Part shown: positions 15,502 through 44,828 of the stretch, in pieces
How positions within the stretch are numbered: position 1 is the first letter of the stretch
How the letters are laid out: every line of letters starts with the position of its first letter
Origin: Desulfobulbaceae bacterium
GTDB lineage: Bacteria; Desulfobacterota; Desulfobulbia; Desulfobulbales; Desulfocapsaceae
NCBI GenBank assembly: GCA_011390165.1
Contig: JAABSV010000003.1
Coordinates: 62,001-126,000 of the forward strand
Direction of reading: 5' to 3'
DNA length: 64,000 nt
Notes under the pieces: model-generated
Database searches by the model: none
Told to the model about the DNA's origin: nothing
What the model saw: only the letters and a program-made list of their open reading frames with translations
Translations under genes and position numbers: made by a program

Positions 15502-15644
15502 GGCCACCTTCAAAAATGGTATTTCCGCCCAATCTCTACGTTGATCGAAAATAATTTGTCCTCGGAATATCAACTCTATGTCTGCGGCAAATTGTTTTCT
15601 TTCGCCTTGATTTTGAACGGAAATTCGAATTTTTCAAGGCAGCC
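15502..15644 (+). mobile_element. MITE-like element, copy 1
   Basis: A 143-bp element bounded by GGCCACCTT... and the inverse of GGCTGCCTTGAAAAAT. It is flanked on both sides by TATA (15498-15501 and 15645-15648), a 4-bp target duplication. The two halves are imperfect inverted repeats of each other over most of the length. It lies between galE and the UDP-glucuronate decarboxylase gene. It has no coding capacity. Confidence 0.85.
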
Positions 15645-15653
15645 TATATACGA

Positions 15654-16604
15654 CTATTTGCCAAGCAACTGTCTGAAGTAGCTGATGGTCTTCACCAGCC
15701 CCTCTTCGAGGGGGACGGTTGGTGTCCAGCCGAGTTTCTCCCGGGCCAGGGTGATATCGGGCCGGCGTTGTTTCGGGTCGTCCTGGGGCAGTTCGACAAA
15801 GACCAGCTGCGATGAGGAACCGGTCAGTTCGAGGATTTTTTCCGCCAACTCGCGGATGGTGAATTCCCCCGGATTGCCCATGTTCATCGGGCCGGTGAAG
15901 CTGTCCTCGGCGGCCATGAAGCGGACCATCAGTTCGATGAGGTCATCGACGTAGCAGAAGGAACGGGTCTGGTCTCCCCGGCCATAGATGGTGATCGGTT
16001 GGCCCTGGAGGGCCTGAACGATGAAGTTGGAGACCACCCGGCCATCGTTGGGGTGCATCTGCGGGCCGTAGGTGTTGAAGAGCCGGCCCACCCGGACATT
16101 GACCCGATGCTGCCGGTGGTAGTCGAAGAAGAGGGTTTCGGCGCAGCGTTTCCCCTCGTCGTAGCAGGAGCGGATACCCACCGGGTTGACGTTGCCCCAG
16201 TACGATTCCGGCTGCGGGTGCAGGGCCGGGTCGCCGTACACCTCGCTGGTGGAGGCCTGAAAGATCTTTGCGTTCACCCTTTTCGCCAGCCCGAGCATGT
16301 TGATTGCCCCGTGCACACTGGTCTTCACCGTCTGCACCGGGTCATGCTGGTAATGGATTGGCGAGGCCGGGCAGGCGAGGTTGTAGATCTCGTCGACTTC
16401 GACGTAAAGGGGAAAGGTGACGTCGTGGCGAAGCAGTTCGAGGTAGGGGTTGCCGAGGAGGTCGAGGATATTCTCCTTGGTGCCGGTGAAGTAGTTGTCC
16501 AGGCAGAGAACCTCGCAGGACTCGCTGAGCAGTCTCCGGCAGAGATGCGAGCCGAGAAAACCGGCGCCGCCGGTGACCAGGACTCGTTTTTTTTCTGTTT
16601 TCAT
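15654..16604 (-). CDS. UDP-glucuronate decarboxylase (UDP-xylose synthase)
   Basis: A 316-residue extended [14 protein letters not shown] is the NAD site, and SCYDEGKR carries the catalytic Tyr-x3-Lys. The [25 protein letters not shown] and RSFCYVDDL segments are typical of UDP-glucuronate decarboxylases, which make UDP-xylose or the UDP-4-keto intermediate for surface polysaccharides. The ATG at 16604 follows GGGAGG; an upstream frame to 16637 is less likely. The gene is bracketed by inverted copies 1 and 2 of the MITE-like element. Confidence 0.88.
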
Positions 16605-16664
16605 CGTCCCTCCCGAGATGGAAGTGCTGGGCAACACTGTTGCCGGGTTTTTGCTGTATGGAGA

Positions 16665-16740
16665 GCCACTGGGACAGCCTCCGCATGCGGACAGCTACTG
16701 CGCCACTCCTGTATGGACAACCACTTGGACAGCCACTGCT
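16665..16740. repeat. Degenerate short repeats upstream of the decarboxylase gene
   Basis: Several imperfect copies of a GGACAGCCACT-like word are spread over about 75 bp next to MITE-like copy 2. Spacing is irregular. Function unknown. Confidence 0.4.
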
Positions 16741-16743
16741 GAA

Positions 16744-16887
16744 AGCTGTCTTGAAAAATTTCAATTTCCGTTCAAAATCAAGGCGAAAGAAAACAATTTG
16801 CCGCAAACATAGAGTTGATATTCCAAGGGCGAAATTGTATTCGTGCAAAGCAGCGATTGGGCGGAAATACCATTTTTCAAGATGGCC
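16744..16887 (-). mobile_element. MITE-like element, copy 2
   Basis: A 144-bp copy in the opposite orientation to copy 1. Its ends are AGCTGTCTTGAAAAAT and the inverse of GGCCATCTTGAAAAAT. It is flanked by TGAA on both sides (16740-16743 and 16888-16891), a perfect 4-bp target duplication. It has the same inverted-repeat design as the other copies and is the most diverged at its tips. Confidence 0.85.
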
Positions 16888-17111
16888 TGAACGGGCTGGG
16901 AGCAGGATGGCGCCAGGATGAGACCGGTCTGTGGACGCTCCCCGCACCGGCCACACTTTTACCATAACGCCCCAACCCTTGCAAGAGCTGCCGCTCGGCC
17001 GGGGATGCTACGGCTGCTGGTTGGCTGGCAGCGAGGAATGGGTGCAGGTTGTAGTGGTGGCTGGTTGCTGGGAGGCAGCTCTTTGCCGGTCGCTTTTGCG
17101 GATCGGAGTGG

Positions 17112-17519
17112 CTAGGCTTGCCTGCCCTGGCTGGCCAGATAATCGGTGATCCGCACCCGGTAGTCGACGATCTCACGGCGCAGGGAAGAGAGGCTGGCCA
17201 TTTTTTCGTCCACCCGGGTGATATGGTTGTCGAGGATCTCGATCAGTTTCGGGGTGATCTTGGTGAAGTCCTTCTCGTTGATATCGAAGATGTCGGAGAG
17301 TTCCTGGATCTCTTTCAGGGAGATGCCAAGATTCTTCAACTTGAGGATGAACTTCAGGCGGAGGATATCGTCGGGGCTGTAGGAGCGGGTACTGCCACCG
17401 GGGCGGTTGTTTTTCCCCATCAGGCCGATTTCTTCGTAGTAACGGATGGTGCGGGTGGTGATGGCCAGTCTTTTGGCCAGTTCGCCGATCTGCATGGGTT
17501 TTTTGTCGCTGTTGGGCAT
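17112..17519 (-). CDS. MerR-family transcriptional regulator (fatty-acid/acyl-CoA regulon type)
   Basis: A 135-residue regulator. The N-terminal winged helix reads IGELAKRLAITTRTIRYYEE, followed by the wing RSYSPDDILRL and a coiled-coil dimerisation helix. There is no C-terminal cysteine metal-binding motif, so it is not a metal sensor. It resembles the LiuR-like MerR proteins that control branched-chain amino acid and fatty-acid degradation genes. It is divergent from the ETF operon. Operator-like ACCTTAACGTAA sites occur before it, before the ETF operon and before fadD, and a variant lies before fadL, so it is probably the autoregulated local regulator. Ligand unknown; acyl-CoA is an inference. 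Confidence 0.85.
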   Translation of the reverse strand: MPNSDKKPMQIGELAKRLAITTRTIRYYEEIGLMGKNNRPGGSTRSYSPDDILRLKFILKLKNLGISLKEIQELSDIFDINEKDFTKITPKLIEILDNHITRVDEKMASLSSLRREIVDYRVRITDYLASQGRQA

Positions 17520-17604
17520 CGTTTATTTCCTGGGGCACCGGGTGCCACTGCTGGGCCGAGAGGCGTGCACCCCGGTCTTTTTTCTTGGGGGAAGCCCATT
17601 AATT

Positions 17605-17619
17605 AACCTTAACGTAATG
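17605..17619. promoter_or_regulatory. Predicted MerR-family operator, regulator gene
   Basis: AACCTTAACGTAATG matches the shared ACCTTAACGTAA word exactly. It lies just after the expected start of regulator transcription, consistent with autorepression. Confidence 0.6.
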
Positions 17620-17629
17620 TGTCGTCGAG

Positions 17630-17658
17630 AAAATAGCACTCTTTTGGTTAGCCGTCAA
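17630..17658 (-). promoter_or_regulatory. Promoter of the MerR-family regulator
   Basis: On the minus strand TTGACG (17658-17653), a 17-bp spacer and TATTTT (17635-17630) form a sigma-70-like promoter. The predicted operator begins about 11 bp downstream of the -10 box. Confidence 0.55.
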
Positions 17659-17728
17659 ATGAAAATAAATCTGTTCAGTGCTGAATTTTCAGGGGTTAGT
17701 CGACCATCAAGTTGCGGCAGAAAAAACA

Positions 17729-17757
17729 TTGACCTTAACGTAAACATAATTTATAAC
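17729..17757 (+). promoter_or_regulatory. Promoter of the ETF oxidoreductase operon
   Basis: TTGACC (17729-17734), a 17-bp spacer and TATAAC (17752-17757). It has the same arrangement as the fadD promoter, with the operator-like word starting in the -35 box and filling the spacer. The leader to the start codon at 17972 is about 205 nt. Confidence 0.7.
17731..17746. promoter_or_regulatory. Predicted MerR-family operator, ETF operon
   Basis: GACCTTAACGTAAACA contains the full ACCTTAACGTAA word and overlaps the -35 box and the spacer. Occupancy should block RNA polymerase. Confidence 0.6.
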
Positions 17758-17971
17758 CTGGCAACACGGAGCTGCCGGTGCAAACCCACAAAACTGTTCC
17801 ACCATGCAGTGCCCACTGGTGTTGTCGGTGGGGGTGCTTCTTGGGAGACGGTGGAAGGTGGCCGGTACGAGACGACTATCAGAGGCGTCAATTGCCTCCC
17901 TGTACGTCGCCATGGTCCGGCAGTTCTGGCGGGCAGGACGACCTAGTGGAGAAAAGGACGGGGAGAAAAGG

Positions 17972-20002
17972 ATGGAGTTTACCCGGGAAATTTATTGGAA
18001 TGTCGGCCGCAGTTGGTGGACTCTGCTGCCGATGTACCTGCTTGCCGCCGCCGCCATCGGCCTGCTCATTTATGGGATGCGGCAGCGACTGAAAATCTAC
18101 CGGCAGGGCCTCCCCCTGGTTCGAACCGACCAGTGGCGGTGGCGGTTGGGTAATTTTCTCGCCGCCTTGCTTTTGCAGAAAAAGGTTGTCAGACCGGCCT
18201 GGCCCGGACTGCTGCATGGTTTCTTCTTCTGGGGATTTGTCCTGCTCTTCATCGGCACGACGCTGATCGTCATCCAGGCGGACTTTACCGAACCCCTCTT
18301 TGACCTGATCTTTCTGCGCGGAACCTTCTACAAGATTTTCTCCCTCACCCTCGATCTGGCCGGACTGCTCTGTCTTGTCATGCTCGGTGTTCTCCTGGTC
18401 CGGCGCTATTTTTTCCCGCCGGCCGGACTGCAGAGCACCCCTGAACATGGGCTGATGTTTGCCCTCCTCTTCGCCATCCTGGTCAGCGGCTTCGTCATTG
18501 AGGGGGCGCGGATGGCGGTAACCGAACTCGGTACCCCCCTTGCCCCCTGGTCGCCGGTCGGCCTTCTCACCGCCCGGCTGTTGCTGTGGATGGGAGAGGG
18601 GGGGCTGCTTGCCCTGCACAAGGTGACCTGGTGGTTCCACCTTCTCCTGGTGGTCGTTTTCCTCACCCTCATCCCTCGTACCAGATTCCGTCACCTTTTC
18701 ACCACCAGCAGTAACGCCTTTTTCGCCGACCTTGGCCCCAAGGGGAAACTGGTCAGCCTGGATATGGACAATGAGGAGGCGGAGAGCTACGGGACCAGCC
18801 GGATCGACCAGATGACCTGGAAGGATATTTTTGATACCGATGCCTGCACCCTCTGTCAGCGCTGTCAGGACCGCTGCCCCGCCTTTGCCACCGGCAAACC
18901 ACTGTCACCGATGCAGGTGATCAGCCAGCTGGGGGAGGCGGCCGTCAGCCGTCCCGGTGATGACTTGCCCGCCACCGTTGGCCGGGAGGCGCTGTGGGCC
19001 TGTACCACCTGCCGGGCCTGTGAGGAGATCTGTCCGGCGACCATCGAACATGTTGCCAAGATAGTCGGCATGCGCCGGTCGCTGGTGCTGATGGAGGGCG
19101 AGTTTCCCGGTGATGAGGTGATGGCGGCCATGGAGGCCACAGAGGTCAACGGCAACCCCCTGGGCAGCGCCTTCGCTGGCCGCGGCGACTGGGCAGCGGC
19201 GCTGGGGGTGAAGCCGCTGGCCGAGGATGCCGATGTCGACATCCTCTATTTTGTCGGCTGCTACGCCTCCTTTGACCAGCGCAACATTGCCGTTGCCCGC
19301 AGTTTTGTCGAGCTTTGCCGGGCCGCCGGCATCAAGCCGGGGATTCTCGGCAAGGAGGAGAGGTGTTGTGGCGAGCCGATGCGCAAGATGGGTAACGAGT
19401 ACCTCTATCAGACCCTGGCCGGGGAAAATATAGCCGCCATCAACCGCTACCCGGTGAAACGGATCGTCACCAGCTGCCCCCACTGTTACAACACCCTGGC
19501 CAAGGATTACCGGGATCTTGGCCTGATCGCCGAGGTGGTGCCGCATACCCTCTTTCTCGCCGAACTGCTGGCAAGCGGCCGGCTGCGTCTGGCGGCCGCC
19601 GATTTTACCTGCACCTACCACGACTCCTGTTATCTTGGCCGCCATAATGACATCTACGAGCCTCCCCGCCAGCTTATTCGCGCCGCCGGCGGCACCCTGG
19701 TGGAAATGGCGAAAAACCGCGCCGACGCCTTCTGTTGTGGCGCTGGCGGTGGCCGGATTCTCGCCGAAGAGAAAAGCGGGACGCGGATCAGCCACCAGCG
19801 GCTGGAGATGGCTGCGGCCACCGGGGCAGGGGAACTGCTCAGCAACTGCCCCTTCTGTCTGACCATGTTTGTTGACGGGGTAAAGGGGGCCGATCTCGAG
19901 GGTCACCTGCGGCCTCGGGACATCGCCGAGGTTCTCGCTGAGCGGCTAGAGCACGGCAGCGATGTCGCGCCAATGGATACCACAAGTGGAGGAAAACAAT
20001 GA
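17972..20002 (+). CDS. Membrane ETF:menaquinone oxidoreductase (heme b / CCG Fe-S type)
   Basis: A 676-residue protein. The first ~240 residues hold about five to six membrane helices resembling the nitrate reductase gamma/heme b domain. A cytoplasmic part follows with two 4Fe-4S motifs, CTLCQRCQDRC (from Cys292) and CTTCRACEEIC (from Cys344). Two heterodisulfide-reductase CCG domains then follow (CCG at 465-467 and 588-590). This is the architecture of FadF/YwjF of Bacillus and of the EMO protein proposed to carry electrons from ETF to menaquinone in fatty-acid oxidising anaerobes. It overlaps etfB by ATGA. GGGAG precedes the ATG at 17972, while the longer frame from 17804 crosses the leader. 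Confidence in the role is strengthened by the etfBA neighbours. Confidence 0.88.
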   Translation: MEFTREIYWNVGRSWWTLLPMYLLAAAAIGLLIYGMRQRLKIYRQGLPLVRTDQWRWRLGNFLAALLLQKKVVRPAWPGLLHGFFFWGFVLLFIGTTLIVIQADFTEPLFDLIFLRGTFYKIFSLTLDLAGLLCLVMLGVLLVRRYFFPPAGLQSTPEHGLMFALLFAILVSGFVIEGARMAVTELGTPLAPWSPVGLLTARLLLWMGEGGLLALHKVTWWFHLLLVVVFLTLIPRTRFRHLFTTSSNAFFADLGPKGKLVSLDMDNEEAESYGTSRIDQMTWKDIFDTDACTLCQRCQDRCPAFATGKPLSPMQVISQLGEAAVSRPGDDLPATVGREALWACTTCRACEEICPATIEHVAKIVGMRRSLVLMEGEFPGDEVMAAMEATEVNGNPLGSAFAGRGDWAAALGVKPLAEDADVDILYFVGCYASFDQRNIAVARSFVELCRAAGIKPGILGKEERCCGEPMRKMGNEYLYQTLAGENIAAINRYPVKRIVTSCPHCYNTLAKDYRDLGLIAEVVPHTLFLAELLASGRLRLAAADFTCTYHDSCYLGRHNDIYEPPRQLIRAAGGTLVEMAKNRADAFCCGAGGGRILAEEKSGTRISHQRLEMAAATGAGELLSNCPFCLTMFVDGVKGADLEGHLRPRDIAEVLAERLEHGSDVAPMDTTSGGKQ

Positions 20003-20772
20003 AGATTCTGGTGTGCATCAAACAGGTGCCGGATATGGAGGCAAAATTCAAGATCGATGGTGCCGGCACCTGGTACGCCCGGACCGATCTGGCCTGGCGG
20101 ATGAACGAATATGACGAATACGCGGTGGAGCAGGCGATCCAACTGAAGGAGCAGGAACAGGAGGCCGATATTACCGTCCTCTGCATCGGCGGCGAGCAGG
20201 TGAAAGAGACGATCAAGAAGGCCCTGGCAATGGGCTGTGACCGGGCCGTCCATGTCGCCATGGAGGCGGTCAGCAGCCTTGAGCCCTTGCAGATCGCCGG
20301 AATAATCGCCGAGTTTGCCCGAGACCAGGGCTTTGCCCTGATTTTTACCGGCATGCAGTCCCAGGACCGGGGTTCCGGCCAGGTGGGTCTACTGGTGGCC
20401 GAGTTCCTTACTCTGCCGGCGGTGAGCACGGTGGTGGAGTTTGCCTACGAGGCCGGCATGGCGACGGTGCGGCGGGAACTGGAAGGAGGGACAAGGGCCT
20501 GTGTCAAGGTGGCGACGCCGGCGGTTATCACCTGCCAGCTCGGCCTGAACAGCCCGCGCTACCCGACCCTGCCCAATATCATGAAGGCAAAGAAGAAAGA
20601 GCTGCGCACCATCCCGGCCGGGGAACTGCTCAAGGTGGCCCCCCGACAGGAGACGGCGAAACTTTTCTTTCCGGAAAAAAGGGGTGGCGGCGAGGTGCTG
20701 GAGGGGGAGATCGGCGAACTGGCCGATCGGGTGATCCAGATACTGAAAGAGAAAACCACAGTCCTTTCCTGA
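19999..20772 (+). CDS. etfB: Electron transfer flavoprotein, beta subunit
   Basis: A 257-residue EtfB with the N-terminal KILVCIKQVPD and an AMP/adenine-binding alpha/beta fold. It forms a heterodimer with EtfA and receives electrons from acyl-CoA dehydrogenase. It starts inside the stop of the oxidoreductase gene (ATGA overlap) and is followed after 11 nt by etfA. The N-terminal DPxD-type segment is not the pattern I would expect of strictly bifurcating EtfB proteins, but I cannot decide bifurcation from sequence alone. Confidence 0.93.
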   Translation: MKILVCIKQVPDMEAKFKIDGAGTWYARTDLAWRMNEYDEYAVEQAIQLKEQEQEADITVLCIGGEQVKETIKKALAMGCDRAVHVAMEAVSSLEPLQIAGIIAEFARDQGFALIFTGMQSQDRGSGQVGLLVAEFLTLPAVSTVVEFAYEAGMATVRRELEGGTRACVKVATPAVITCQLGLNSPRYPTLPNIMKAKKKELRTIPAGELLKVAPRQETAKLFFPEKRGGGEVLEGEIGELADRVIQILKEKTTVLS

Positions 20773-20783
20773 GGAGAAACCGT

Positions 20784-21701
20784 ATGAAGAGCTTATTGAT
20801 TGCCGAGAGTCGGCAAGGGAAGGTGCTGGGCGGAAGTTACGAACTAATGGCCTTCGCCGGAGAACTGGCCAGCGACACCGTGATGTTTCTGGTCGGCAGC
20901 AAAGAGGCCCTGCCGGCCTACGGCGGCCGACTCTATCTGGCGGATGCCGCAGAGGTCGGTGACTACAACCCCGAGGCCCACCGCGAGTTGATTCTTCAGG
21001 TCATAGCCGAGGAGAATCCGGAGATGGTCCTCTTCTGCCACTCCTCCTACGGTTGGGACCTCGCGCCGAGGGTGGCCTCTGCCCTGGGGGCGGCCCAGGT
21101 CTCGGAAGTGGTGGCGCTGCGCGACGGGATGCCGGTGGTGCCGGTCTGTAACGGCAAACTGCGCCGCCAGGTGCAGGTGGCCACCACCAGAAGGGTCTTT
21201 ACCCTCCAGGCGGGCGCCTTTTCGCCGTCGGCGGAGCCCTCCGGGACCCCGGAGGTGATCAAAATGGCCGCCCCTGCCCCCGGCCGGGTGGAGTTCTGCG
21301 GCTACGAGCAGGCCGCCGTCGGTGGGGTCGATCTCGGCAAGGCCTCGGTGGTCGTCAGTGCCGGCCGCGGTATCGGCAAACCGGAAAATGTCAAGATGGT
21401 CGCTGAACTGGCCAGGGCCCTGGGTGGCGAGTACGGGGCCAGTCGCCCGGTGGTGGATGCCGAGTGGGTCGAACACAACCGCCAGGTTGGAACCACCGGC
21501 CAGAGTGTCGCCCCGAAACTCTATGTGGCCTGCGGTATCTCCGGCGCCATCCAGCATCTGGCCGGGATGAAGAAGTCGGAGTTCATCGTCGCCATCAATA
21601 CCGACCGTGACGCCCCCATCGGCGAGATCGCCGACCTCTTGGTGGTGGCCGACCTGAAGCAGTTCGTCCCTCTGCTCACCGCGAAACTGCAGGCCCGTTG
21701 A
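20784..21701 (+). CDS. etfA: Electron transfer flavoprotein, alpha subunit
   Basis: A 305-residue EtfA. The C-terminal FAD-binding domain shows [46 protein letters not shown] and [10 protein letters not shown], the standard FAD-contact motifs. It is near the low end of the family's length and has no ferredoxin extension. The ATG at 20784 follows GAGGAG. Within the operon it pairs with etfB and the membrane oxidoreductase to route electrons from beta-oxidation into the quinone pool. Confidence 0.93.
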
Positions 21702-21809
21702 AGGGGAGAAGGCCATGGCCGAAGAAGCGATTGCCTTCCACCCGGTCCGCTCCCCGGCCGGGCTTGTCGTGTTATTGTGCGCACCGAGTCTGTCCAGGAG
21801 GGTGAAAAA

Positions 21810-22220
21810 ATGACCGCGGCAAAGGAGATACGTACCGAAATCAAGGTGCGGGGGTACCACGCCGATTTTTACGGCCATGTCAACAACGCCCGCTACCTCG
21901 AGTTTTTGGAAGAGGATCGCTGGGCAAACCTGGAGGCAAATATCGACCTTGCCGAATGGGCCCGGACCGGTCTGGTTTTTCTGGTGGTCAACATCAACAT
22001 CAACTACCGCCGGGCGGTGGCGGTGGGGGAGACCCTGCTGGTTACCACCCGGCTGGAGAAGATCGGCAGTCGCAGCGCCGTCCTCAAACAGGATATCCTG
22101 GTCAAGGAGGGGCTGCAGACGGCGGCAGACGCCTTGGTGACCTTTGTCATTGCCGATGGCAGTGGTCGGGCGGTGGCCATGGAAGGGGCCGTTCGGGAGA
22201 GAATCGAAAGACTGCGTTGA
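21810..22220 (+). CDS. Acyl-CoA thioesterase (4HBT hotdog fold)
   Basis: A 136-residue hotdog-fold protein of the YbgC/4-hydroxybenzoyl-CoA thioesterase type. The [17 protein letters not shown] segment carries the catalytic aspartate and asparagine region. It hydrolyses acyl-CoA thioesters in the cytoplasm; chain length is unknown. A strong AGGAGG lies 8 nt before the ATG at 21810, so the longer frame from 21777 is rejected. It is the last gene before fadL and probably relieves CoA trapping during fatty-acid oxidation. Confidence 0.87.
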
Positions 22221-22276
22221 CCCAGCCAGCTGGCGTTTTTCCGCTTACGTATCGATTTCACCAGGATTGTTTGCAG

Positions 22277-22306
22277 TTGACAGATCTTGCGGCGGTAGAT
22301 TAGTAA
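22277..22306 (+). promoter_or_regulatory. Candidate fadL promoter
   Basis: TTGACA (22277-22282), a spacer of 17-18 bp and TTAGTA/TAGTAA (22300-22306). The -10 box is weak but the -35 box is perfect. The predicted operator lies about 20 bp downstream. Confidence 0.5.
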
Positions 22307-22324
22307 AAGGCCTGACGGTTCGCT

Positions 22325-22339
22325 TACCTGTACGTAAAA
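22325..22339. promoter_or_regulatory. Predicted MerR-family operator, fadL
   Basis: TACCTGTACGTAAAA differs from the shared ACCTTAACGTAA word at two central positions. It lies just after the expected transcription start of fadL. It is the weakest of the five sites. Confidence 0.45.
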
Positions 22340-22483
22340 GGAGGCATAGGAAAATTGCCGGCTCTGCCCACCACCAATGATGTGCTGCCGGGCAGGTGGC
22401 CGTGGGGCGGCAAGGGTGTATCTGTCGGTGTTTTGACAGGTTTTGAGGGCTTCCATGGAGTTCAATTGAGAGGGGAGGAGAGT

Positions 22484-23722: not shown

Positions 23723-23732
23723 TATCGGTCAG

Positions 23733-23765
23733 GCCCCCCTGCTGCCGGAATGGTGGCTGGGGGGC
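23733..23765. terminator. Possible terminator stem-loop after fadL
   Basis: GCCCCCC (23733-23739) pairs with GGGGGGC (23759-23765), 11 nt after the fadL stop. The loop is 19 nt and no T-run follows, so termination is uncertain. Confidence 0.35.
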
Positions 23766-23773
23766 TGCCTTAA

Positions 23774-23914
23774 GGCTGCCTTGAAAAATTCGAATTTCCG
23801 TTCAAAATCAAGGCGAAAGAAAACAATTTGCCGCAGGCATGGTTGATATTCCGAGGACAAATTATTTTCTTTTAACGCAGAGATTGGGCGGAAATACCAT
23901 TTTTCAAGGTGGCC
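23774..23914 (-). mobile_element. MITE-like element, copy 3
   Basis: A 141-bp copy with perfect ends GGCTGCCTTGAAAAAT and the inverse of GGCCACCTTGAAAAAT. It is flanked by TTAA on both sides (23770-23773, 23915-23918), a 4-bp target duplication. It has the same orientation as copy 2 and differs from copy 1 at only about ten positions. Confidence 0.88.
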
Positions 23915-23962
23915 TTAAAAGAGAGCCGAGAGCTCGCGGCAGAGTCTTGGCTTTCTTCCAGG

Positions 23963-24006
23963 CCCTTTAAAGTCCCTTTAGAGCCCCTTTCGAGTCTCTT
24001 TAGATA
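23963..24006. repeat. Four tandem 11-bp repeats
   Basis: Four consecutive 11-bp units of the form CCCTTTAAAGT, CCCTTTAGAGC, CCCTTTCGAGT, CTCTTTAGATA. The period is one helical turn. They lie between MITE-like copy 3 and the radical SAM gene. Function unknown. Confidence 0.7.
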
Positions 24007-24090
24007 CCTTGTCGGGGTGTTGGGGAGGACATAGAAAAGTACAGTTAAGGTCCGGTATAGACCCAGTAGCCCCCTCGGCCGCCATTGCTC

Positions 24091-24960: not shown

Positions 24961-25004
24961 GCGCTCTTTCTCCCCTTCTCCACTTATCTATTGGTCTCTT
25001 TTTA

Positions 25005-25188: not shown

Positions 25189-27315
<2,127 letters not shown>

Positions 27316-32636: not shown

Positions 32637-32646
32637 ATCGTGCCCC

Positions 32647-37768: not shown

Positions 37769-37826
37769 TCATCTTCCTCGTTTCGCTGCCCCCCATCCGG
37801 GCCGGCCCCTTCGCCGCACCGCCGCT

Positions 37827-38339
37827 TCAGGCGGCCAGTTTTCTCCTTTTCGGCAAAATATAGAAGCGGAAATAGCCCACCAGGTTGGAACTGATGAACA
37901 GGGCCTCCATCAGTACCGCCAGCGGGGAACCGGCAAGGATATTGTGGCAGAGCCAGAGGCAGGTGCCGACCAGCATCAGCTGGCGGAGCGTTTTGTCCTC
38001 CCGGCAGAAGGAGGCCATGGTTCCGAAGAGACCGCCGGCGGCGCCGAGCAGGGTGAGGATGCCGCTGTAGGTGAAAAAGGCCACCAGCAGGGTGGCCAGG
38101 AGAAAGAAGAACATCAGCAGCCTGGAGGTGGAAAAGAGGCTGGTGAGAAAGCGGCTGGCGGCCAGTAGGCCCAGCCAGGCGGCGGTCCAGTGGTCAAGAA
38201 GCATGAAATGGACGGAGATGAGCAGGCAGGAGGTGAAAAGGCAGGCGACGATGTGGCGCCGCTGTTTGAACTGGAAGGAGATGAGGTCGGTGGCGATGGC
38301 GATGCCGACGAGAATCTGCGAGAGCAGAAAGGGAGTCAT
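37827..38339 (-). CDS. YgjV-family inner-membrane protein
   Basis: A 170-residue protein with about five to six hydrophobic helices and the SFQFKQRRHIV segment typical of the YgjV/DUF family of small inner-membrane proteins. Function unknown. Its ATG overlaps the stop of the SET-domain gene by one base (TAATG), so it is translationally coupled to the upstream RimK-GNAT-SET genes. Confidence 0.75.
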   Translation of the reverse strand: MTPFLLSQILVGIAIATDLISFQFKQRRHIVACLFTSCLLISVHFMLLDHWTAAWLGLLAASRFLTSLFSTSRLLMFFFLLATLLVAFFTYSGILTLLGAAGGLFGTMASFCREDKTLRQLMLVGTCLWLCHNILAGSPLAVLMEALFISSNLVGYFRFYILPKRRKLAA

Positions 38340-38962
38340 TAAGGGCGTTCTCGGGGTGGAACCAGGAAGGGGGAGCCGTCAAGCAGACAGAGGCAGTCGG
38401 CGATGGTGCCGAGGGCTTTTTTGCCACTGGCCACCGCAGCCACCTCCTGCCAGGCCTCGGGAGAAAAAAAGGGCTGCAGTGGTTGGTCGACCTTGAGGAG
38501 GCGGGTGAAGGCCGCGGCCAGCAGCCGGTCCCACTTGCCACTGTGGCGGCGGAGGTCGTCGGGGTGGACGGTATCCCGGCCGCTCCCCTCCTCCTCTACC
38601 GGGAATGGGGCGATGATGTTGAGGGTGCCGTAGTCGTTGGTCAGTTCTTCACCGCAGGCGATATCACGGATGGCAATCTCGAAGTTGTAGGGGGTGAGGC
38701 AGCAGTTGGCGTGGAAGCTGTGGTTCATGTAGCGTTCGTTGTCCCAGCAGAAGACCAGACGGCCATGGCGGTTGCGGTAGGAGTAGGTGAGGATTGTCTC
38801 CCTGATGGCCGGGGGAAGCTGCCAGAATTGCTCCGGGGTGAACTCCCGGTCCAACTGGTCAAAGACCCAGGTGATGGTCCCCTTGCGGATGGGAGCGGTG
38901 GCGACAACACCGCGCCCCTTGCTCTCACTGATGGGGACGACCTGTGTACAGGGGATGATCAT
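38339..38962 (-). CDS. SET-domain protein
   Basis: A 207-residue protein with a complete small SET domain. KGRGVVATAPIRKGT is the N-terminal strand, RYMNHSFHANC the S-adenosylmethionine/pseudoknot motif and ELTNDYG the C-terminal motif. SET proteins are S-adenosylmethionine-dependent lysine methyltransferases. Bacterial stand-alone members are mostly uncharacterised. The start at 38962 has GGAG upstream, inside the end of the GNAT gene (38-bp overlap). Substrate may be modified by its operon partners (RimK-like ligase, acetyltransferase), an inference from context. Confidence 0.85.
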   Translation of the reverse strand: MIIPCTQVVPISESKGRGVVATAPIRKGTITWVFDQLDREFTPEQFWQLPPAIRETILTYSYRNRHGRLVFCWDNERYMNHSFHANCCLTPYNFEIAIRDIACGEELTNDYGTLNIIAPFPVEEEGSGRDTVHPDDLRRHSGKWDRLLAAAFTRLLKVDQPLQPFFSPEAWQEVAAVASGKKALGTIADCLCLLDGSPFLVPPRERP

Positions 38963-39431
38963 GGCCCGTCTCCGTTGTCAGGTTCTTGTGAAGAAGGAGG
39001 GCATGGCCGCCATCCTGGTAGTATCCGTAGCGAAAGCCATGCTGGTGGAAACCGCACTTGCGGTAGAGGGCAAGGGCGGCCAGGTTGCTGTCGGCCACCT
39101 CCAGAGTGAGCGAGGTAGAGCCGGCGCGCCGGGCGATCGCCTCGATTTCCGCCACCAGCATGCTGCCCAGGCCGGCCTGCCGCTCGGCAGGAAGGACGGC
39201 CAGGGAGTACACCCGCATCTTCCGGCTGTTCCGGCGGCTGAGCAGGATGGCATAGCCGGCGATCGTTTTCTCGCCCTGACGCCTGGCCAGCAGCACCGCC
39301 CCACGGCGGATCAGGTAGCGGAAGCTCCGCCGCGAGCAACGGTCGGTGTGGAAGAGCTGCCGTTCCAGCCGGTCCAGTTCGTTGATATCGGTCGGTTCGG
39401 CAGTGGTGAAGTGGAAGGTGGCGCCGCTCAA
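38925..39431 (-). CDS. GNAT-family N-acetyltransferase (RimI-like)
   Basis: A 168-residue acetyltransferase. VYSLAVLPAERQAGLGSMLV is the acetyl-CoA pyrophosphate-binding motif A, and LEVADSNLAALALYRKCGF is motif B, as in RimI. The best start is TTG at 39431, overlapping the TGA of the RimK-like gene as TTGA. The upstream frame to 39764 is antisense-like padding. It would transfer acetyl groups to an amine of a protein or small molecule. Coupling to the RimK-like gene suggests a shared substrate. Confidence 0.85.
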   Translation of the reverse strand: MSGATFHFTTAEPTDINELDRLERQLFHTDRCSRRSFRYLIRRGAVLLARRQGEKTIAGYAILLSRRNSRKMRVYSLAVLPAERQAGLGSMLVAEIEAIARRAGSTSLTLEVADSNLAALALYRKCGFHQHGFRYGYYQDGGHALLLHKNLTTETGHDHPLYTGRPHQ

Positions 39432-40897
39432 AGCCGCTGGCCGGTGTTCAGCCGGTTGACGATCTCCCGGAGGATGATCCGGTACAGCTCGTTGCCCATG
39501 ATCTTGTCCTCCACCCCGTGCTCGATGGAGGGGTTGTCGTTGATCTCGATGATTATCGGCTGGTCGTTGACCACCTTGATATCGACCCCGTAGAGTCCCT
39601 TGCCGATGAGCGCGGTGGCCTTCAGGGCCAGCCGCCGGACCCGTGACGGGACACTGCCCAGCGGTACGGTCTCCCAGTTGCCGCCCCGGGCATTGCCGGT
39701 TTTGCGATGCTGGATGATCTGCCAGTGCCCTTTGGCCATGAAGTATTTGCAGCTGTAGATGCATTCACCGCCAAGCACGCCGATCCGCCAGTCAAACTCG
39801 GTGGGGACGTACTCCTGCACCAGCAGGATCGAGGAGCGCTGGAAGAGATCGCTGGTGACCTGACCGTACTCCTCCTCAGAAGTGACCTTGGCCACCCCCA
39901 CCGAGAAGGAGCCATCAGGAATCTTCACCACCATGGTGCTGCCGAAACACTCACTCAGCTGCCGGTACGGGGCGGGGTTCTTCTTGAAGATCAGCTTGGA
40001 GCGGGGGCAAGGTATCTGTTCCCGGTCGAGCAGCTCTTTCAGATAGACCTTGTTGGTGCAGCGGATAATTGAGGCCGGGTCATCGATTACCACCATGTCG
40101 GCCAGGTGGGCCTTGCGGGCCAACTGGTAGGTGATATGGTGGACGGCAGTGGTCTGGCGGATGAACAGGGCGTCGAACTCCATCAACCGGGCTGAGTCGT
40201 CGGCGGTGATCAGTTCGGCGTTGATGTTCATTTTTTTCGCCTCGGAGACGAAGAGGTTGAGTGCCGAGGTGTTGCTGGGGCCGAGTTTCTCCTCCGGGTC
40301 GTAGAGAATCGCCAGATCGTAGCGGCTCGGTTTCTTGCTGCGCGGGTAGCGCCAGATCTTCCTGCTGAAACGGTCGATGGCGTTGGCAAAGAGGGTCTGC
40401 TGGTTCTCGTTCAATTCCCCCAGGCTGATGGTCCGGAAGTGGTCGACCTGGGTGAGGGCGGCGTCGCGGAAGGTGACCTTCAGCATCGGGAAAGGAAACT
40501 GGTCGAAGATGAACTTGGCCAGTCGGCGCAGCCCCTGGTTCTGGCAATCACCGAAAAAGATGTCCAGTTCGTAGGGCGGGTTGTCCATCATCGGGTTGAT
40601 GCTCAAATTCTGGCAGCTCTTTTTGACCAGTCCCTGCAGCTTCAGGGTCCGGTCGCAGTCGAGGGCATTGATCGCCTCCACCGAGGGGATGATCTTGTGT
40701 TTTCGGGCCTGAGCCAGGAGGGAGCAGTAGTACCCTTCCGAGTTGTAGCTCAGGTCGCCGCAGAGGTTGATAACCAGCAGCTTGCTGCTGCTCAGCGCCT
40801 GGTTGTAGAGGTAGGCATCGGCGGTGATGATGCTGTCGGTGTCGTAGTAGGGTTTCCAGTCGGAAAGGGTGTCGAGAACGATCAGAGTGGTGTTCAT
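39428..40897 (-). CDS. RimK-like ATP-grasp ligase with N-terminal RLAN-type domain
   Basis: A 489-residue protein. The C-terminal half is an ATP-grasp domain of the RimK type, with VVKIPDGSFSVGV, LVQEYVPTEFDWRIGVLGGE and VVNDQPIIIEINDNPSIEHG as nucleotide and Mg2+ motifs. The first ~200 residues match the helical domain often found before RimK-like enzymes (RLAN). ATP-grasp ligases of this type add amino acids to proteins, peptides or small molecules. It heads a four-gene coupled set with GNAT, SET and YgjV. There is no clear ribosome site. Citrate synthase lies 87 nt upstream on the same strand. Confidence 0.85.
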   Translation of the reverse strand: MNTTLIVLDTLSDWKPYYDTDSIITADAYLYNQALSSSKLLVINLCGDLSYNSEGYYCSLLAQARKHKIIPSVEAINALDCDRTLKLQGLVKKSCQNLSINPMMDNPPYELDIFFGDCQNQGLRRLAKFIFDQFPFPMLKVTFRDAALTQVDHFRTISLGELNENQQTLFANAIDRFSRKIWRYPRSKKPSRYDLAILYDPEEKLGPSNTSALNLFVSEAKKMNINAELITADDSARLMEFDALFIRQTTAVHHITYQLARKAHLADMVVIDDPASIIRCTNKVYLKELLDREQIPCPRSKLIFKKNPAPYRQLSECFGSTMVVKIPDGSFSVGVAKVTSEEEYGQVTSDLFQRSSILLVQEYVPTEFDWRIGVLGGECIYSCKYFMAKGHWQIIQHRKTGNARGGNWETVPLGSVPSRVRRLALKATALIGKGLYGVDIKVVNDQPIIIEINDNPSIEHGVEDKIMGNELYRIILREIVNRLNTGQRL

Positions 40898-40984
40898 GGT
40901 GATCCCGGAGGGGGTGCCGAGGAGAAAGGGTTAAAGGTGGCCGGCTGCCCGGCGGCGGGCGGCCTCGGCAGTCTTTTCCAGGGG

Positions 40985-42169
40985 TCAGCCCCGGGAACGC
41001 TCCCTGATCGGGATGTAAGCATACGATGCCGGCCCGATGTACTCGGCACGGGGGCGGATCAGCCGGTTTTTGCTCCACTGTTCGAGGATATGCGAGGTCC
41101 AGCCGACGGTTCTGCTGATCGCGAAGACCGGGGTGAAAAGTTCCTTCGGCAGACCGATGGCAGTATACAGGGAAGCGGTGTAGAGATCAACATTTGCGAA
41201 GACCTTGGTCTGTTCGACAACGATTTTGTCAATCTCGCAGGTAATGTCGAAATACCTGCTGTCGCCATGCAGCGCAGAAAGCTCCCGGGCATAGGCGCGC
41301 AGGGGATCCACCCGTGGATCCTCACAGCGGTAGACCCGGTGGCCGAAGCCGGGGATCTTCTCGCCGGCGGCCAGTTTTTTCTCGATCACCGCCCTGGCCC
41401 GGGCCGGTTCGCCGATCTCCTCCAGCAGCAGCATCACCTCGGTATTGGCGCCGCCGTGCAGGGGCCCCTTGAGGGTGCCGATGGCGGAGGTGACCGCCGA
41501 GTAGATATCGGCCATGGTCGAGGCGGTGACCCGGGCGGAGAAGGTGGAGGCGTTCAGTTCGTGGTCGGCGTGGAGGACAAGGGCGGCATCAAAGGCCCGT
41601 TCCACCAGTGGTTCCGGTTCCCGGCCGAAAAGGGTGTAGAGGAAGTTGAAGGCGATACTGCGGCCGGGGATCGGCCTGATCGGCTCCTCACCCTCGCGCA
41701 GCCGCTGGTGTGCCGAGATGAGCAGGGGGATCCGTTCGGTGAGACGCTGGGCCTTGCGCAGGCTGGCGTCCAGGCCGGTGTTGCCGCTGTCCGGGTCCCA
41801 GTGGCCGAGCGAGGAGACGGCGGTGCGGATCACCTCCATGGGGGTGGCGGCCTTGGGGAACATCCGCAGGATCATGGTCGTCTCCATGGGCAGGGCCATG
41901 GAGCCGGTGAAGCCGGCGAGAAAGGCCTTGAACTCGGTGGGCCGGGGCAGGGCGCCGTACCAGAGGAGGTAGGCCACCTCTTCAAAGGTCGACTGGCGGG
42001 CCAGCTCGATGGCGTCATAGCCACGATAAAGCAGACGACCCTCTTTACCGTCGATGCAGCAGATCTCCGATTCGCAGATGGTGATATCGGCCAGGCCGAG
42101 GCCCAGGTTGTGGCCTTGGCCCTGAGCCGAGCCGATTTGGCCTGGCGGGTTGTCCGGTGGCGCGCTCAT
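40985..42169 (-). CDS. gltA: Citrate synthase
   Basis: A 394-residue citrate synthase of the short bacterial/archaeal type. LHADHELNASTF, LHGGANTEVM and GFGHRVYR contain the catalytic histidines, and the late RPRAEYIG segment is present. It condenses acetyl-CoA and oxaloacetate. With Kor and beta-oxidation genes in the same window it suggests oxidation of acetyl-CoA through the TCA cycle. A methylcitrate activity cannot be excluded. The ATG at 42169 follows GAGGAGAG. Confidence 0.92.
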   Translation of the reverse strand: MSAPPDNPPGQIGSAQGQGHNLGLGLADITICESEICCIDGKEGRLLYRGYDAIELARQSTFEEVAYLLWYGALPRPTEFKAFLAGFTGSMALPMETTMILRMFPKAATPMEVIRTAVSSLGHWDPDSGNTGLDASLRKAQRLTERIPLLISAHQRLREGEEPIRPIPGRSIAFNFLYTLFGREPEPLVERAFDAALVLHADHELNASTFSARVTASTMADIYSAVTSAIGTLKGPLHGGANTEVMLLLEEIGEPARARAVIEKKLAAGEKIPGFGHRVYRCEDPRVDPLRAYARELSALHGDSRYFDITCEIDKIVVEQTKVFANVDLYTASLYTAIGLPKELFTPVFAISRTVGWTSHILEQWSKNRLIRPRAEYIGPASYAYIPIRERSRG

Positions 42170-42218
42170 AGTAGTCTCTCCTCGGAAAGGGTGGGGGAAA
42201 AGGATTGCCCTGCCCGGT

Positions 42219-43109
42219 TCAGCGGCGGGGTGTTCCCGTCTGGCCGGGGCCGGTCTCTGTCAGCTGCACCAGCTCGCACAGGTGGTCGCGGGTCTCCAGC
42301 AGCAGCAGGCGTTGGTGCAGGGCCGCCGGCCGGCAAAGGAGAAGGCTGACCACCTCGGCGCATTCCACTGCCGCCAGCTGCCAGGCGGTGAAGGGCAGGG
42401 TACCGAAGGATGCCTCGCTGCCCCTGGTTGGTGCCGCTTCCGGGGCGCCATAGATCCGGCGCAGGCCATCGTCGCCCGGCAGCACCACCGTCGCCTGGCC
42501 GCTGGTGCCGCCGATCGCCGCCGAGACCAGGGGGATTTTCCGGCGGCCACAGGCCTCTTCAAGGGTGAAGCGTCCAGGAATGTTGTCGAGGCAGTCGACG
42601 GCCAGGCTGCAGCCGTCGAGAATCTCCTCGCCGTTGTCGGCGGTGAGGAACTGCGGGACGATCCGGCAGACCACTGCCGGGTTGATCTCCGCCACCCGCT
42701 GTCCGGCAATCTCCGCCTTGGCCAGGCCGAGTACCGCCGGGCTGCTGAGCAGCTGTCGGTTCAGGTTGCTCTCATCAAAGCAGTCGCCATCAACCAGGGT
42801 GAGCCGGCCGACCCCGATCCTGGCGAGAATTTCCATCACTGTCCCCCCCAACCCACCTAGACCGATCACCGCCACCCGGGCCTGAAGGAGACGGAGCTGG
42901 TCGGCGTTGCCCAGGGTCTTCTGGTTGCGGCTGTACCGCTCGGGGATGATCTCCTCGCCGAGGGCGGCACGCTCCACCTCGCCCAGTGCCACAGCGGAGA
43001 GCCTGGCGATCCGGGTGGCGTCCTCCAGGAGCAGGGCGCGGTAGGCCGTCCCGTCGGGGCGCTGGCGCTCCCTGGCGGCGGCATGCAGTTGCTCGGCCAA
43101 GCTGCTCAT
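42219..43109 (-). CDS. HesA/ThiF/MoeB-family E1-like adenylyltransferase
   Basis: A 296-residue E1-like protein. IPERYSRNQ at the N-terminus, the nucleotide-binding GLGGLGGTV and DGDCFDESNLNRQ match ThiF/MoeB/HesA. The CxxC zinc pairs of MoeB are not seen. Such enzymes adenylate a C-terminus of a sulfur carrier or peptide. It overlaps the ferritin-like gene by ATGA, so the two are co-translated. Target unknown; no ThiS/MoaD-like gene is in the window. Confidence 0.82.
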   Translation of the reverse strand: MSSLAEQLHAAARERQRPDGTAYRALLLEDATRIARLSAVALGEVERAALGEEIIPERYSRNQKTLGNADQLRLLQARVAVIGLGGLGGTVMEILARIGVGRLTLVDGDCFDESNLNRQLLSSPAVLGLAKAEIAGQRVAEINPAVVCRIVPQFLTADNGEEILDGCSLAVDCLDNIPGRFTLEEACGRRKIPLVSAAIGGTSGQATVVLPGDDGLRRIYGAPEAAPTRGSEASFGTLPFTAWQLAAVECAEVVSLLLCRPAALHQRLLLLETRDHLCELVQLTETGPGQTGTPRR

Positions 43110-43588
43110 TGGCGGCTGCCGGCGGCAGAGTGGAGCAGCTGTTGCAGCAGTTCCAGATGGCGGCGTTCCTCGGCGATGATCTCCCGCAGGCGGGAGATGG
43201 CATCCTCCTCCTCCAGCAGGGCGAGGAGAAACTCATAGAAGAGAATGGTCTCCTGTTCAAATCTGCCGGCGCTGGTCAGGACGGCATCAATGTCCGGGGC
43301 CGTCTCCAGAGCCTCGCGGTCATGGAGGAAGTCGCTGCCGGATTTGAGGATATCCCTGAGCAGCGAGCGGCCCATATCCTCCACCTCCCGGTCGGCGGCG
43401 GAGAGTGTCCGCCGGGTTTTCGGCAGGCCGGCAAACCACTGCCGGTGGCGCTCCTCTTCTTCGGCCATCCAGCGCAGCAGGGAGGCCGTTTCCGGATCAG
43501 CCACCACCTCGCTGGCTTTGCTATAGGTGGCGGCACCATTCTGTTCAATCTGGATGGCGATATCGTGGAGATCGTCGATGGTAAACAT
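43106..43588 (-). CDS. Ferritin-like/rubrerythrin-domain protein
   Basis: A 160-residue four-helix protein. EQNGAATYSKAS, EEEERHRQWF, FEQETILFYEFL and EERRHLELL are the ExxH-type carboxylate/histidine ligands of a di-iron ferritin-like domain. There is no rubredoxin cysteine domain. It may act in iron or peroxide handling. The ATG at 43588 has GAGAAGGG upstream; the longer frame to 43624 is less likely. It is coupled to the E1-like gene. Confidence 0.82.
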   Translation of the reverse strand: MFTIDDLHDIAIQIEQNGAATYSKASEVVADPETASLLRWMAEEEERHRQWFAGLPKTRRTLSAADREVEDMGRSLLRDILKSGSDFLHDREALETAPDIDAVLTSAGRFEQETILFYEFLLALLEEEDAISRLREIIAEERRHLELLQQLLHSAAGSRQ

Positions 43589-43727
43589 CCCTTCTCTCTT
43601 TTTCGAGTTTTTTGGGCCCGGCACCTTCCCTGTCCGGTTATATCCCTCTATTTTTCATATTCCGTCGTCCTCTTATGGCACTGCCGGAGAACTCCAACTG
43701 CCTGCCTTGAATGGCTGGCAGATGGTT

Positions 43728-43760
43728 GCATTTGTCTGGCATTTGTCTGGCATTTGACCG
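43728..43760. repeat. Three tandem 11-bp repeats
   Basis: GCATTTGTCTG twice and GCATTTGACCG once, without gaps. About 10 bp downstream a 12-bp word GGCAAACGCATG occurs twice (43771-43782, 43793-43804). This lies in the 275-bp gap between the nitroreductase and the ferritin-like gene. It is the second 11-bp array in the window. Confidence 0.65.
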
Positions 43761-43863
43761 GCAGCTGGCTGGCAAACGCATGGCTGAAGGATGGCAAACG
43801 CATGACGGGCCGCTGGTCCCCTACCCCGCTGGTGCACTACCCACTACCCTCTGGAAGCCGGGG

Positions 43864-44529
43864 TCACAGGAAGAAGCGGGTGAAACTCTCCACCTCCTCG
43901 CGCGGGGTCCGGTAGGCGTTAACCGGCGCCGCAGGATCCTCGTAGCCGAGGGCCATGCCGCAGAGCAGGACGGTTGACTCGTCGTAGCCGAGTTGCCCCT
44001 TTATCACCTCCGGAAACTGCCCCAGTGCCGCCTGGGCGCAGGTGGCCAGCCCTTCGGCGTGGGCGGCAAGCATCAGCGACTGGAGAAACATCCCGCAGTC
44101 GAGGAAGGAACCCTTCTCCATCCGAGCATCCATAAAGAAGAAAAGCACCACCGGCGCATCGAAGGCACGGTAGTTGGCGACCCACTGTGCCTCCCTCGCT
44201 ACCTGGTCGTGCCGGGCGATGCCCAGCGCCTCGTAGAGTTGGATGCCGCAGCTAAAGCGCCTCTTTTTCGGGGCCGGCGGCCACTGTTGCGGATAGTAGT
44301 GGTACTCCATCTCTCCCACTCCCCGTTCGGCAAAGGCCTTTTCCAGGGCCTGGCAGAGCTGGCGTTTTTTGTCGCCGCCGACCACCGCCACCTGCCAGGG
44401 CTGGGCGTTGGCGCCGGACGGGGCATTGCCGGCGGCATCCAGAATGCGGACGATCTGCTCCCGGCTTACCGGTTGGTCGAGATAGGCGCGGGTCGATTTG
44501 CGACCGGCAAGGGCGTCAAACAGCTTCAT
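43864..44529 (-). CDS. Nitroreductase-family flavoprotein
   Basis: A 221-residue FMN-dependent oxidoreductase. RKSTRAYLDQPV and GNAPSGANAQPWQ are the FMN-binding N-terminal segments, and MALGYEDP is near the C-terminus. Substrates of this family range from nitroaromatics to flavins and cannot be read here. The ATG at 44529 follows AGGAG. It lies next to MITE-like copy 4. Confidence 0.85.
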   Translation of the reverse strand: MKLFDALAGRKSTRAYLDQPVSREQIVRILDAAGNAPSGANAQPWQVAVVGGDKKRQLCQALEKAFAERGVGEMEYHYYPQQWPPAPKKRRFSCGIQLYEALGIARHDQVAREAQWVANYRAFDAPVVLFFFMDARMEKGSFLDCGMFLQSLMLAAHAEGLATCAQAALGQFPEVIKGQLGYDESTVLLCGMALGYEDPAAPVNAYRTPREEVESFTRFFL

Positions 44530-44685
44530 CGTTCTCCTGAGGGCCATCCTTGTTTATGACTTGCACCCAGCAGGGGTATGCTTGTCCATTGGTGAACCGT
44601 TACATATCCCAGTTCTGCACTCTCTTAGGTGCATAGCACTGAACGACCACCTCCATTGTACCCTCCATGCGGCGAAGTCTCAACA

Positions 44686-44828
44686 GGCCACCTTGAAAAA
44701 TGGTATTTCCGCCCAATCTCTGCCTTGAAGGAAAACAATTTGTCCTTGGTATATCAAATATCTGCTCACGAAAAATTGTTTTTCTTCGCCTTGGTCTTGA
44801 ACGGAAATTGGAATTTTTCAAGGCAGCC
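44686..44828 (+). mobile_element. MITE-like element, copy 4
   Basis: A 143-bp copy with ends GGCCACCTTGAAAAAT and the inverse of GGCTGCCTTGAAAAAT, in the same orientation as copy 1. The flanks are AACA and GACA, a 4-bp duplication with one mismatch, suggesting an older insertion. It lies 190 bp before lon. Confidence 0.82.

Follow-up and report, generated by a model that had tools for sequence, protein, structure and literature searches.

Miniature inverted-repeat elements of a Desulfobulbaceae bacterium share a conserved hairpin core that elsewhere lies between different ends

Four miniature elements and their copies in the source assembly

We analysed a stretch of 64,000 nucleotides (the window) from a Desulfobulbaceae bacterium (contig JAABSV010000003.1, positions 62,001 to 126,000, part of contig C31 in our labelling), which carries four copies of a gene-less element of about 142 bp with the anatomy of a miniature inverted-repeat transposable element (MITE). 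The copies and the matches to their interior, or core, are as follows.

15502..15644, + strand: MITE copy 1, ends GGCCACCTTCAAAAAT / GGCTGCCTTGAAAAAT, TATA at 15498-15501 and 15645-15648
15518-15629, - strand: core match in copy 1 (covariance model, E 7e-23)
16744..16887, - strand: MITE copy 2, degenerate ends AGCTGTCTTGAAAAAT / GGCCATCTTGAAAAAT, TGAA at 16740-16743 and 16888-16891
16759-16871, + strand: core match in copy 2 (covariance model, E 4.4e-13)
23774..23914, - strand: MITE copy 3, TTAA at 23770-23773 and 23915-23918
23789-23898, + strand: core match in copy 3 (covariance model, E 3.4e-21)
44686..44828, + strand: MITE copy 4, AACA at 44682-44685 and GACA at 44829-44832 (3 of 4 bases match)
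44702-44813, - strand: core match in copy 4 (covariance model, E 2.4e-12)

All four had been proposed in a first-pass annotation and were recovered at the same coordinates, both with copy 1 as BLAST query (84.6-100% identity) and with a covariance model of the interior, which returned exactly four matches in the window at E<=10. The flanking repeats named there are exact in the case of TATA, TGAA and TTAA and agree in 3 of 4 bases for AACA/GACA; the inverted-repeat ends, the lack of coding capacity and the absence from the window of a transposase with matching ends were likewise confirmed. Copy 2 begins with A rather than G, copy 1 folds with z scores of -4.8 and -5.5 (one value per strand), and no Rfam family matched positions 15400-44950 of the window at its gathering score. 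The interpretation offered in that annotation, a non-autonomous element moved in trans, is in line with the anatomy and with the 4-bp duplications; beyond it goes our observation that the interior is a covarying structure that recurs across the phylum, elsewhere enclosed by quite different ends. Between copies 1 and 2 lies a gene on the minus strand (15654-16637), which is SDR/epimerase-like as read from its translation alone. A composite transposon or cassette formed by these 2 copies was considered and rejected, each copy having its own duplication (TATA and TGAA, respectively).

The source assembly comprises 108 contigs (3.59 Mb, 90.9% complete); below, G labels denote genomes and L labels sequence stretches, within which L coordinates are counted. 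A BLAST search of the assembly with copy 1 yielded at least 42 matches (40 of the 68 candidates scored), and stretches were taken around most of these and around the first 100 of 163 matches to the end pattern. After removal of 11 short rows (9 fragments and 2 self-palindrome matches) from 60 BLAST rows, at least 49 copies remained that are nearly complete (141-153 bp), a copy cut off by the end of contig C107 being outside this set. Exact 4-bp duplications flank 30 of the 49 copies, compared with an expectation of 2.9 obtained by combining each left flank with right flanks of other copies, so that the signature proposed for the window extends to the assembly. Exact flank matches of other lengths amounted to 5 for 2 bp, 2 for 3 bp and 0 for each of 5, 6, 7, 8 and 9 bp. 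The duplications start with T in 27 and end with A in 25 of the 30 cases. Duplication of the target through a staggered cut is established behaviour of DDE transposases. Pairwise identity among the 49 copies averages 0.88 (range 0.73 to 1.00), and with values reaching 1.00 some copies must therefore be recent. According to a simple codon-model gene finder made for this analysis, 43 copies are intergenic, 1 is inside a predicted open reading frame and 5 are at edges; relative to tandem gene pairs, 11 copies are oriented opposite and 6 the same way, with 15 and 11 further copies lying between divergent and convergent genes, respectively.

One copy in the assembly (L035 2849-2989), flanked by TCTA on both sides, is located exactly at the stop codon of gap, before a rimI-like gene. 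A gap match was found in 14 of 15 same-genus genomes, own included, leaving 13 relatives for comparison; in 12 of the 13, the rimI frame opens 10-38 bp downstream of the gap stop codon (tblastn, 41-51% identity), the distance being 10-14 bp in 11 of those 12. Thus, the empty sites called for in the first-pass annotation exist at this junction, and the alternative that all relatives carry the element at the same place does not apply there. The gap gene is 72-78% identical at the DNA level to those of the 13 relatives, which hence represent other species, so that the comparison demonstrates an insertion on the lineage of the window rather than a strain polymorphism. In G008, 343 bp of other sequence separate gap and rimI, with repeated AGTACCCC(A/C)T.GAGGGGTG units (L206).

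Degraded forms of the element are also present. Half elements standing in inverted order form two pairs, one around gap-pgk (L035 1547-1571 and 4613-4709) and one around a 7.4-kb block (L058 2772-2803 and 10124-10220), and each pair lacks nearly the same inner stretch. Reading the pairs as a single MITE split by 3.2 kb and 7.4 kb, respectively, or as cargo capture was rejected, and because the outer flanks are not direct repeats (TTCA/TGAA and TTAC/ATCA) we regard the halves as separate decayed copies. In the same genome (G000), L051 2999-3034 is a 36-bp pair of inverted ends of the window's type (type A, see below) almost devoid of interior.

Insertion sequences with matching ends

A full insertion sequence (IS) sharing the ends of the MITE, the search for which had been recommended in the first-pass annotation, was found in relatives by its ends and belongs to the IS5 family, the candidates named in that annotation having been IS701-, IS1380- and ISH3-like families; none is present in the window's own assembly. 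The single-contig genome G019, from the same family as the source, was scanned with the end pattern, and pairs located about 1334 bp apart were found to bound an IS of 1334 bp with ends GGGTTCCTTGAAAAAT/GGGCACCTTGAATAAT and one 337-aa transposase. The latter contains PF05598 and PF01609 and matches NCBIfam NF033581 (IS5_4) with 280 bits (cut-off 140); the genome has 20 matches to this transposase. Exact 4-bp duplications flank 7 of the 10 copies with both ends read, L075, which spans two IS copies, being outside the 10. The MITE ends in G019 are GGG(AA/GA/GG)(C/G)CTTGAAAAAT. In Desulfogranum mediterraneum, the MITE ends are GGGTACCTTGAAAAAT; two contigs carry IS5_4 pieces, which terminate in GGGTTCCTTGAAAATT and GGGAACCTTGAAAATT and are each bordered by CTAA on the outside. 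The same IS5_4 anatomy recurs in named relatives, in the Desulfobulbales and beyond, with ends picked automatically (a procedure that fails in some loci) reading CCTTGAAAAAT or near in the Desulfobulbales clade and CCTCGAAAAAT, CCTCTAAAAAT or CCTCCGGAAAC in distant relatives.

The matching ends would also be expected if the MITE were a deletion derivative of an IS5 element, that is, a type I MITE. However, in the single IS compared base by base, no similarity was seen past the ends: the best local score between the interiors of the IS and the MITE was 10, a value that 62 of 500 shuffles attained. In addition, this interior is found elsewhere with other ends. Application of the core model to 23 IS loci gave no match at E<=10 in 21 of them; of the remaining two, one contains a MITE beside the IS and the other matched at E 1.5. 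As far as tested, the MITE interior thus does not appear to be derived from the IS, and we consider the deletion scenario very improbable.

A hairpin core between several types of ends

The interior is an imperfect palindrome (hairpin) of about 110 nt, in which TTTTCGCCCAATCTC..GCGTT..AAAATTTTATCCTCGGAATATCAACTATATGCCTGCGGTAAAATTTT..GCCTTGATCTTGAACGAAAA is shared and the arms covary. RNAalifold predicted 33 pairs from 29 cores, with 95.3% paired cells compared with 31-49% when the partner is slid, and a covariation score of 0.310 compared with 0.059-0.095, the structure having been derived from the alignment on which it was scored, which flatters it against the slid versions. Two-sided changes affect 14 of the 33 pairs (shuffled mean 9.6, with 14 reached by 1 of 500 shuffles), and a strand comparison aimed at a possible RNA, made over 41 cores that are not independent, counted 107 G-U against 80 C-A pairs.

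A serious rival for the covariation is arm-to-arm repair. Template switching is a known mutational route for quasi-palindromes and would, without any selection, copy changes from one arm to the other, so that stems covary and the two ends change together; both arms and both ends do indeed change together. However, the mismatched internal segments AAGGC and AACGCAGAG stay unlike each other across families, as does the apex, instead of being corrected to perfect pairs, and repair leaves unexplained the conservation of the apex between genomes, where it varies less than the arms (0.055 versus 0.193 in 19 genomes of the order and 0.098 versus 0.213 in 33 genomes of the phylum). We regard repair as a possible but rather doubtful source of the pattern.

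Conservation of a structure could alternatively reflect a host regulatory hairpin, transcribed and acting in cis, for instance as a terminator or RNase III site, and kept for the benefit of the host. The covariation and the location of 43 of the 49 copies between genes agree with such a role, as does the lower variation of the apex among the 10 copies of G019 (0.014 versus 0.040 in the arms), whereas the reverse holds for the 49 copies of the window's genome, in which variation is higher at the apex than in the arms (0.101 versus 0.064). Moreover, because the orientation of the copies in tandem gene pairs shows no clear bias (11 opposite, 6 same) and the gap-rimI junction has no copy in 12 of 13 relatives, a needed cis-regulator is disfavoured, and we judge this explanation improbable. 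G000 shows a strong contrast between within- and between-genome variation of the apex (138:255 versus 29:299, p 8e-18); as G019 shows none (4:33, p 0.76, 10 copies), this contrast is not relied on here. Our preferred guess is that the structure is kept for the benefit of the element rather than that of the host.

MITE matches were found in 36 of 57 relatives, own included. The core model matched 60 of 297 sampled genomes of the phylum at E<=1e-3 (own included), representing 48 of 199 genera, and 41 of 297 at the stricter E<=1e-10, compared with 0 of 23 genomes from other groups reached through IS5_4 loci. Among six Desulfobulbales/delta-side genomes reached in the same manner, D. mediterraneum has 131 core matches, SB20 has one, RIFOXYD12 has four weak ones and three genomes have none. 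A search of 8 loci against Rfam gave two snoRNA matches (E 0.2-0.4), neither over the element. No core was matched in plasmids or phages at the sensitivity used, and the exact apex was not found in viral contigs.

In a same-genus relative, the same interior is enclosed by quite different ends, a pattern borne out in forty further stretches. The outer ~16 nt fall into about seven types around one core, as delimited by string rules made for this analysis:

Type A (the window's type): GG...CCTTGAAAAAT
Type B: GTGTCTGTCCAGAAAT and variants
Type C: GAGTCTGTTGATTTA
Type D: GAGCCTCTTGCAAAAT
Type E: GAGCCTGTCGGATTAT
Type F: GAGGCTGTCCGAGAAT
Type I: GTGCCTGAACGAAAAC

Whatever the ends, the element is mostly 139-143 bp long. 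Target duplications were surveyed in 99 core-bearing elements outside the window's genome, each assigned to the nearest type with at most 9 mismatches over the two ends (4 were unclassified, L275 was left out beforehand and elements less than 8 bp from a stretch end were skipped). Type A elements have exact 4-bp duplications in 37 of 55 cases (1.5 expected) and no exact 6-bp ones, whereas type B elements have exact 6-bp duplications in 7 of 21 cases (0.25 expected) and no exact 4-bp ones. Exact 6-bp repeats flank all 6 type C elements; type F has exact 4-bp repeats in 4 of 7 cases (a weak excess over 2.3 expected), these being CTAG (3 of the 4) or ATAG; type D (n=5) has one 4-bp and one 5-bp duplication, the 2 type E elements have none, and the 3 type I elements have no exact one in this survey, with 5 of 6 bases agreeing in each. 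Where a 6-bp repeat has the form T....A, its outer bases may equally belong to the ends, the duplication then being 4 bp and each end one base longer, and the 2 readings were tested on outer bases that depart from this form. Exact 6-bp repeats flank 12 of 31 B-type elements, counted irrespective of whether they contain the core and including one false pair made up of two neighbours. Once this false pair is set aside, a departing outer base recurs on the other side in 5 of 6 cases (3 of 4 for core-bearing elements alone); therefore, the type B duplication is 6 bp long. The firm contrast is limited to type A with 4 bp and type B with 6 bp, and the 6-bp duplication indicates that a transposase other than that of type A must act on type B.

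A candidate for this second transposase is encoded in G003, which carries type B elements and has a match to NF033593 (ISNCY_1) of 472 bits (cut-off 325). The ISNCY_1 copy with both flanks read (L298) has ends GTGCCTGGAAAGAAAT / GTGCCTGGCAGAAAAC and TAAATA on both sides, and single ends of other ISNCY_1 copies border TAATTA or TAGTTA; the G003 element in L221 is flanked by TAGTTA on both sides. The type B ends of G003 agree with the ISNCY_1 ends in 12 of 16 positions, and one ISNCY_1 end, GTGCCTGAATGGAAAC, resembles type I in 14 of 16. An ISNCY_1-like transposase may thus move types B and I, which is a fit, not proof. No ISNCY_1 match was obtained in 7 of 12 genomes searched, including the B- or I-bearing G013, G043, G264, G098 and G188 and the C-type genomes G014 and G008. 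Inspection by eye of the four longest frames in each of 20 stretches recognised no IS behind the GTG-type ends, no profile search having been made. The IS5_1 transposase of G285 (L299) was considered as the partner of GTTTCCATCCAGAAAT ends and rejected, its own ends being GGGCTTCCTGAAAAAG-like. Two relatives agree with this rejection: in L323 (G262) and L325 (G091), IS5_1-type transposases are enclosed by GGGCTTCCTGAA-like ends and bordered by exact 6-bp repeats (CAATTA and TATTTA, respectively); hence, an IS5-named group with a 6-bp duplication exists in the phylum.

Further combinations of ends and interiors were encountered. G264 has both B-type and I-type ends, as well as a second family of MITEs (L280 371-557, L279 3909-4095, L281 265-452, L296 284-470 and L297 1106-1292), 187-188 bp long, in which B-type ends enclose an interior other than the core; this interior is palindromic, and the segments CTGCGTT, GCCTTG, CCTGCG and CCTCGG recur in it in a different order. 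In L282 331-584, a core is joined to another hairpin, around AGTACCTTAGAAATTCATTTC; similar pieces occur in L220 (G003) and, upstream of gap, in L205 (G001). The intergenic region upstream of gap also contains a full type B element in G003 (L218/L203) and a 25-nt type A end in G000 (L035 1547-1571), the same region having been struck by two end types.

The cores were also placed on a tree, on which the end types change at least 12 times; it comprises 84 cores (5 unlabelled, 12 from the window's genome) and 112 columns and has many weak forks. At least 5 changes are required under a coding by duplication length, in which 4 stands for A and F and 6 for B, C and I, the coding being doubtful for C, F and I. 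Types F and E fall within the type A rows of G052 (98/92), type I is placed beside a type A row (98/93) within a mixed clade (100/100), and the type B elements of G003, G004 and G013 form a clade (100/99) which adjoins type A of G019 at 90/81 only. There is good support for the ends having changed on a persisting core at least twice, as judged from these placements, and moderate support for a change that would have reached another duplication length (A to B).

Collectively, these results make it probable that the four copies in the window are type II MITEs moved by an IS5_4-type transposase from elsewhere, and that the core with other ends is served by another transposase. An IS-made transposase would bind the ends of the gene-less ~142-bp element and move it in trans; for type A, the candidate is the transposase of an IS5_4-type IS, with ends of the form GGGNNCCTTGAAAAAT and a 4-bp target duplication. 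On insertion, the target would be cut with a stagger of 4 bp for type A or 6 bp for type B, and the folded DNA or RNA core may help transposition or protect the element. More tentatively, and with odds we place somewhat below even, the core would be the persistent selfish unit and the ends a changeable vehicle, with a protein-recognised structure having ridden at least two different transposases across the phylum, taken on new ends whenever the resident transposase changed, and so outlived each IS on which it depended.

The same elements could instead be plain IS5 MITEs with drifted ends, a single lineage that followed slowly changing transposases with no exchange of ends, the conserved look of the core stemming mainly from recent spread between genomes. 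Neighbouring end types do differ by few bases and several share an inner AAAT, the core tree is built on 112 columns, with many weak forks, and the duplication lengths of types C, F and I can be read in two ways. Drift under one transposase does not, however, explain the 4-bp duplications of type A versus the 6-bp ones of type B, nor the nesting of F/E inside A (98/92) and the position of I beside an A row (98/93). The covarying stems speak against the part concerning the core, as does the lack of core matches in plasmids, phages and viral contigs at the sensitivity used. We consider this scenario unlikely, though worth keeping in view.

Several points weigh against the preferred reading of type II MITEs served by at least two transposases. 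Movement is deduced from the anatomy, the duplications and one empty junction, and the different ends may have come about by gradual drift instead of exchange. The window's assembly (90.9% complete) contains neither an IS5_4 relative nor a DUF772 match; an IS5_4 transposase occurs without any MITE match in G002, G053 and G056, as does a piece of one in G012 and G020; conversely, MITEs are present in many genomes that lack an IS5_4 transposase. The type A rows of the survey come largely from D. mediterraneum and G019. An earlier assignment of types C, F and I to settled lengths of 6, 4 and 6 bp, respectively, was dropped after the outer-base test, each allowing two readings: the outer bases of type C are A and T in 6 of 6 cases, so that 6 bp and 4 bp with longer ends both fit; type F fits 4 or 2 bp; and type I, with an exact 6-bp repeat in 1 of 3, the inner 4 bases repeated in 3 of 3 and departing bases agreeing in 0 of 2, fits 6 bp or 4 bp with longer ends. 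The ISNCY_1 partnership of the GTG-type ends draws on end similarity and one IS copy, L298 being the sole ISNCY_1 copy with both flanks, and its TAAATA is readable as 6 bp or as 4 bp with longer ends. Finally, the empty site concerns 1 of the 49 copies and none of the four in the window.

Comparison with known systems

The usual view of MITEs is that each is the remnant of a single IS; a conserved interior with differing ends turns this picture round, and how non-autonomous elements outlast their transposases becomes testable. The cultured type strain D. mediterraneum DSM 13871, which has 131 core matches as well as pieces of IS5_4 whose ends are similar, makes experiments possible. In a literature search of limited reach, the element was not found described. 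BOX, RUP, Correia and REPIN are also small structured mobile repeats; going by the portions of their descriptions available to us, which make no mention of different ends on one core, they are set apart from the element described here. TIMEs (Tn3-derived miniature elements) are likewise non-autonomous, moved in trans and occasionally mosaic, but differ, according to part of the published account, in their length of 262 bp, 38-bp Tn3-type ends and 5-6-bp duplications (PMC4133298).

Among IS groups, IS5_4 (NF033581) has the GGGNNCCTTGAAAAAT ends and 4-bp duplications seen here, whereas the MITE contains neither its transposase nor its interior. ISNCY_1 (NF033593), with ends GTGCCTG....AAA(C/T) and TAAATA flanks (L298), resembles types I and B and is not the partner of the window's copies. 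Closest in kind are the type II MITEs, which, in the sections of the source at hand (PMC10969869), are short, gene-less and intergenic, with inverted-repeat ends, target duplications and IS similarity confined to the ends. One MITE covered there, Chunjie of Geobacter uraniireducens (178-235 bp), has many intergenic copies and one inside an operon (PMC10969869); it is longer, and the likeness to our element is one of description. Unlike the type II MITEs as portrayed in those sections, the element of the window has an interior that covaries, is conserved over many families of the phylum and occurs with several types of ends.

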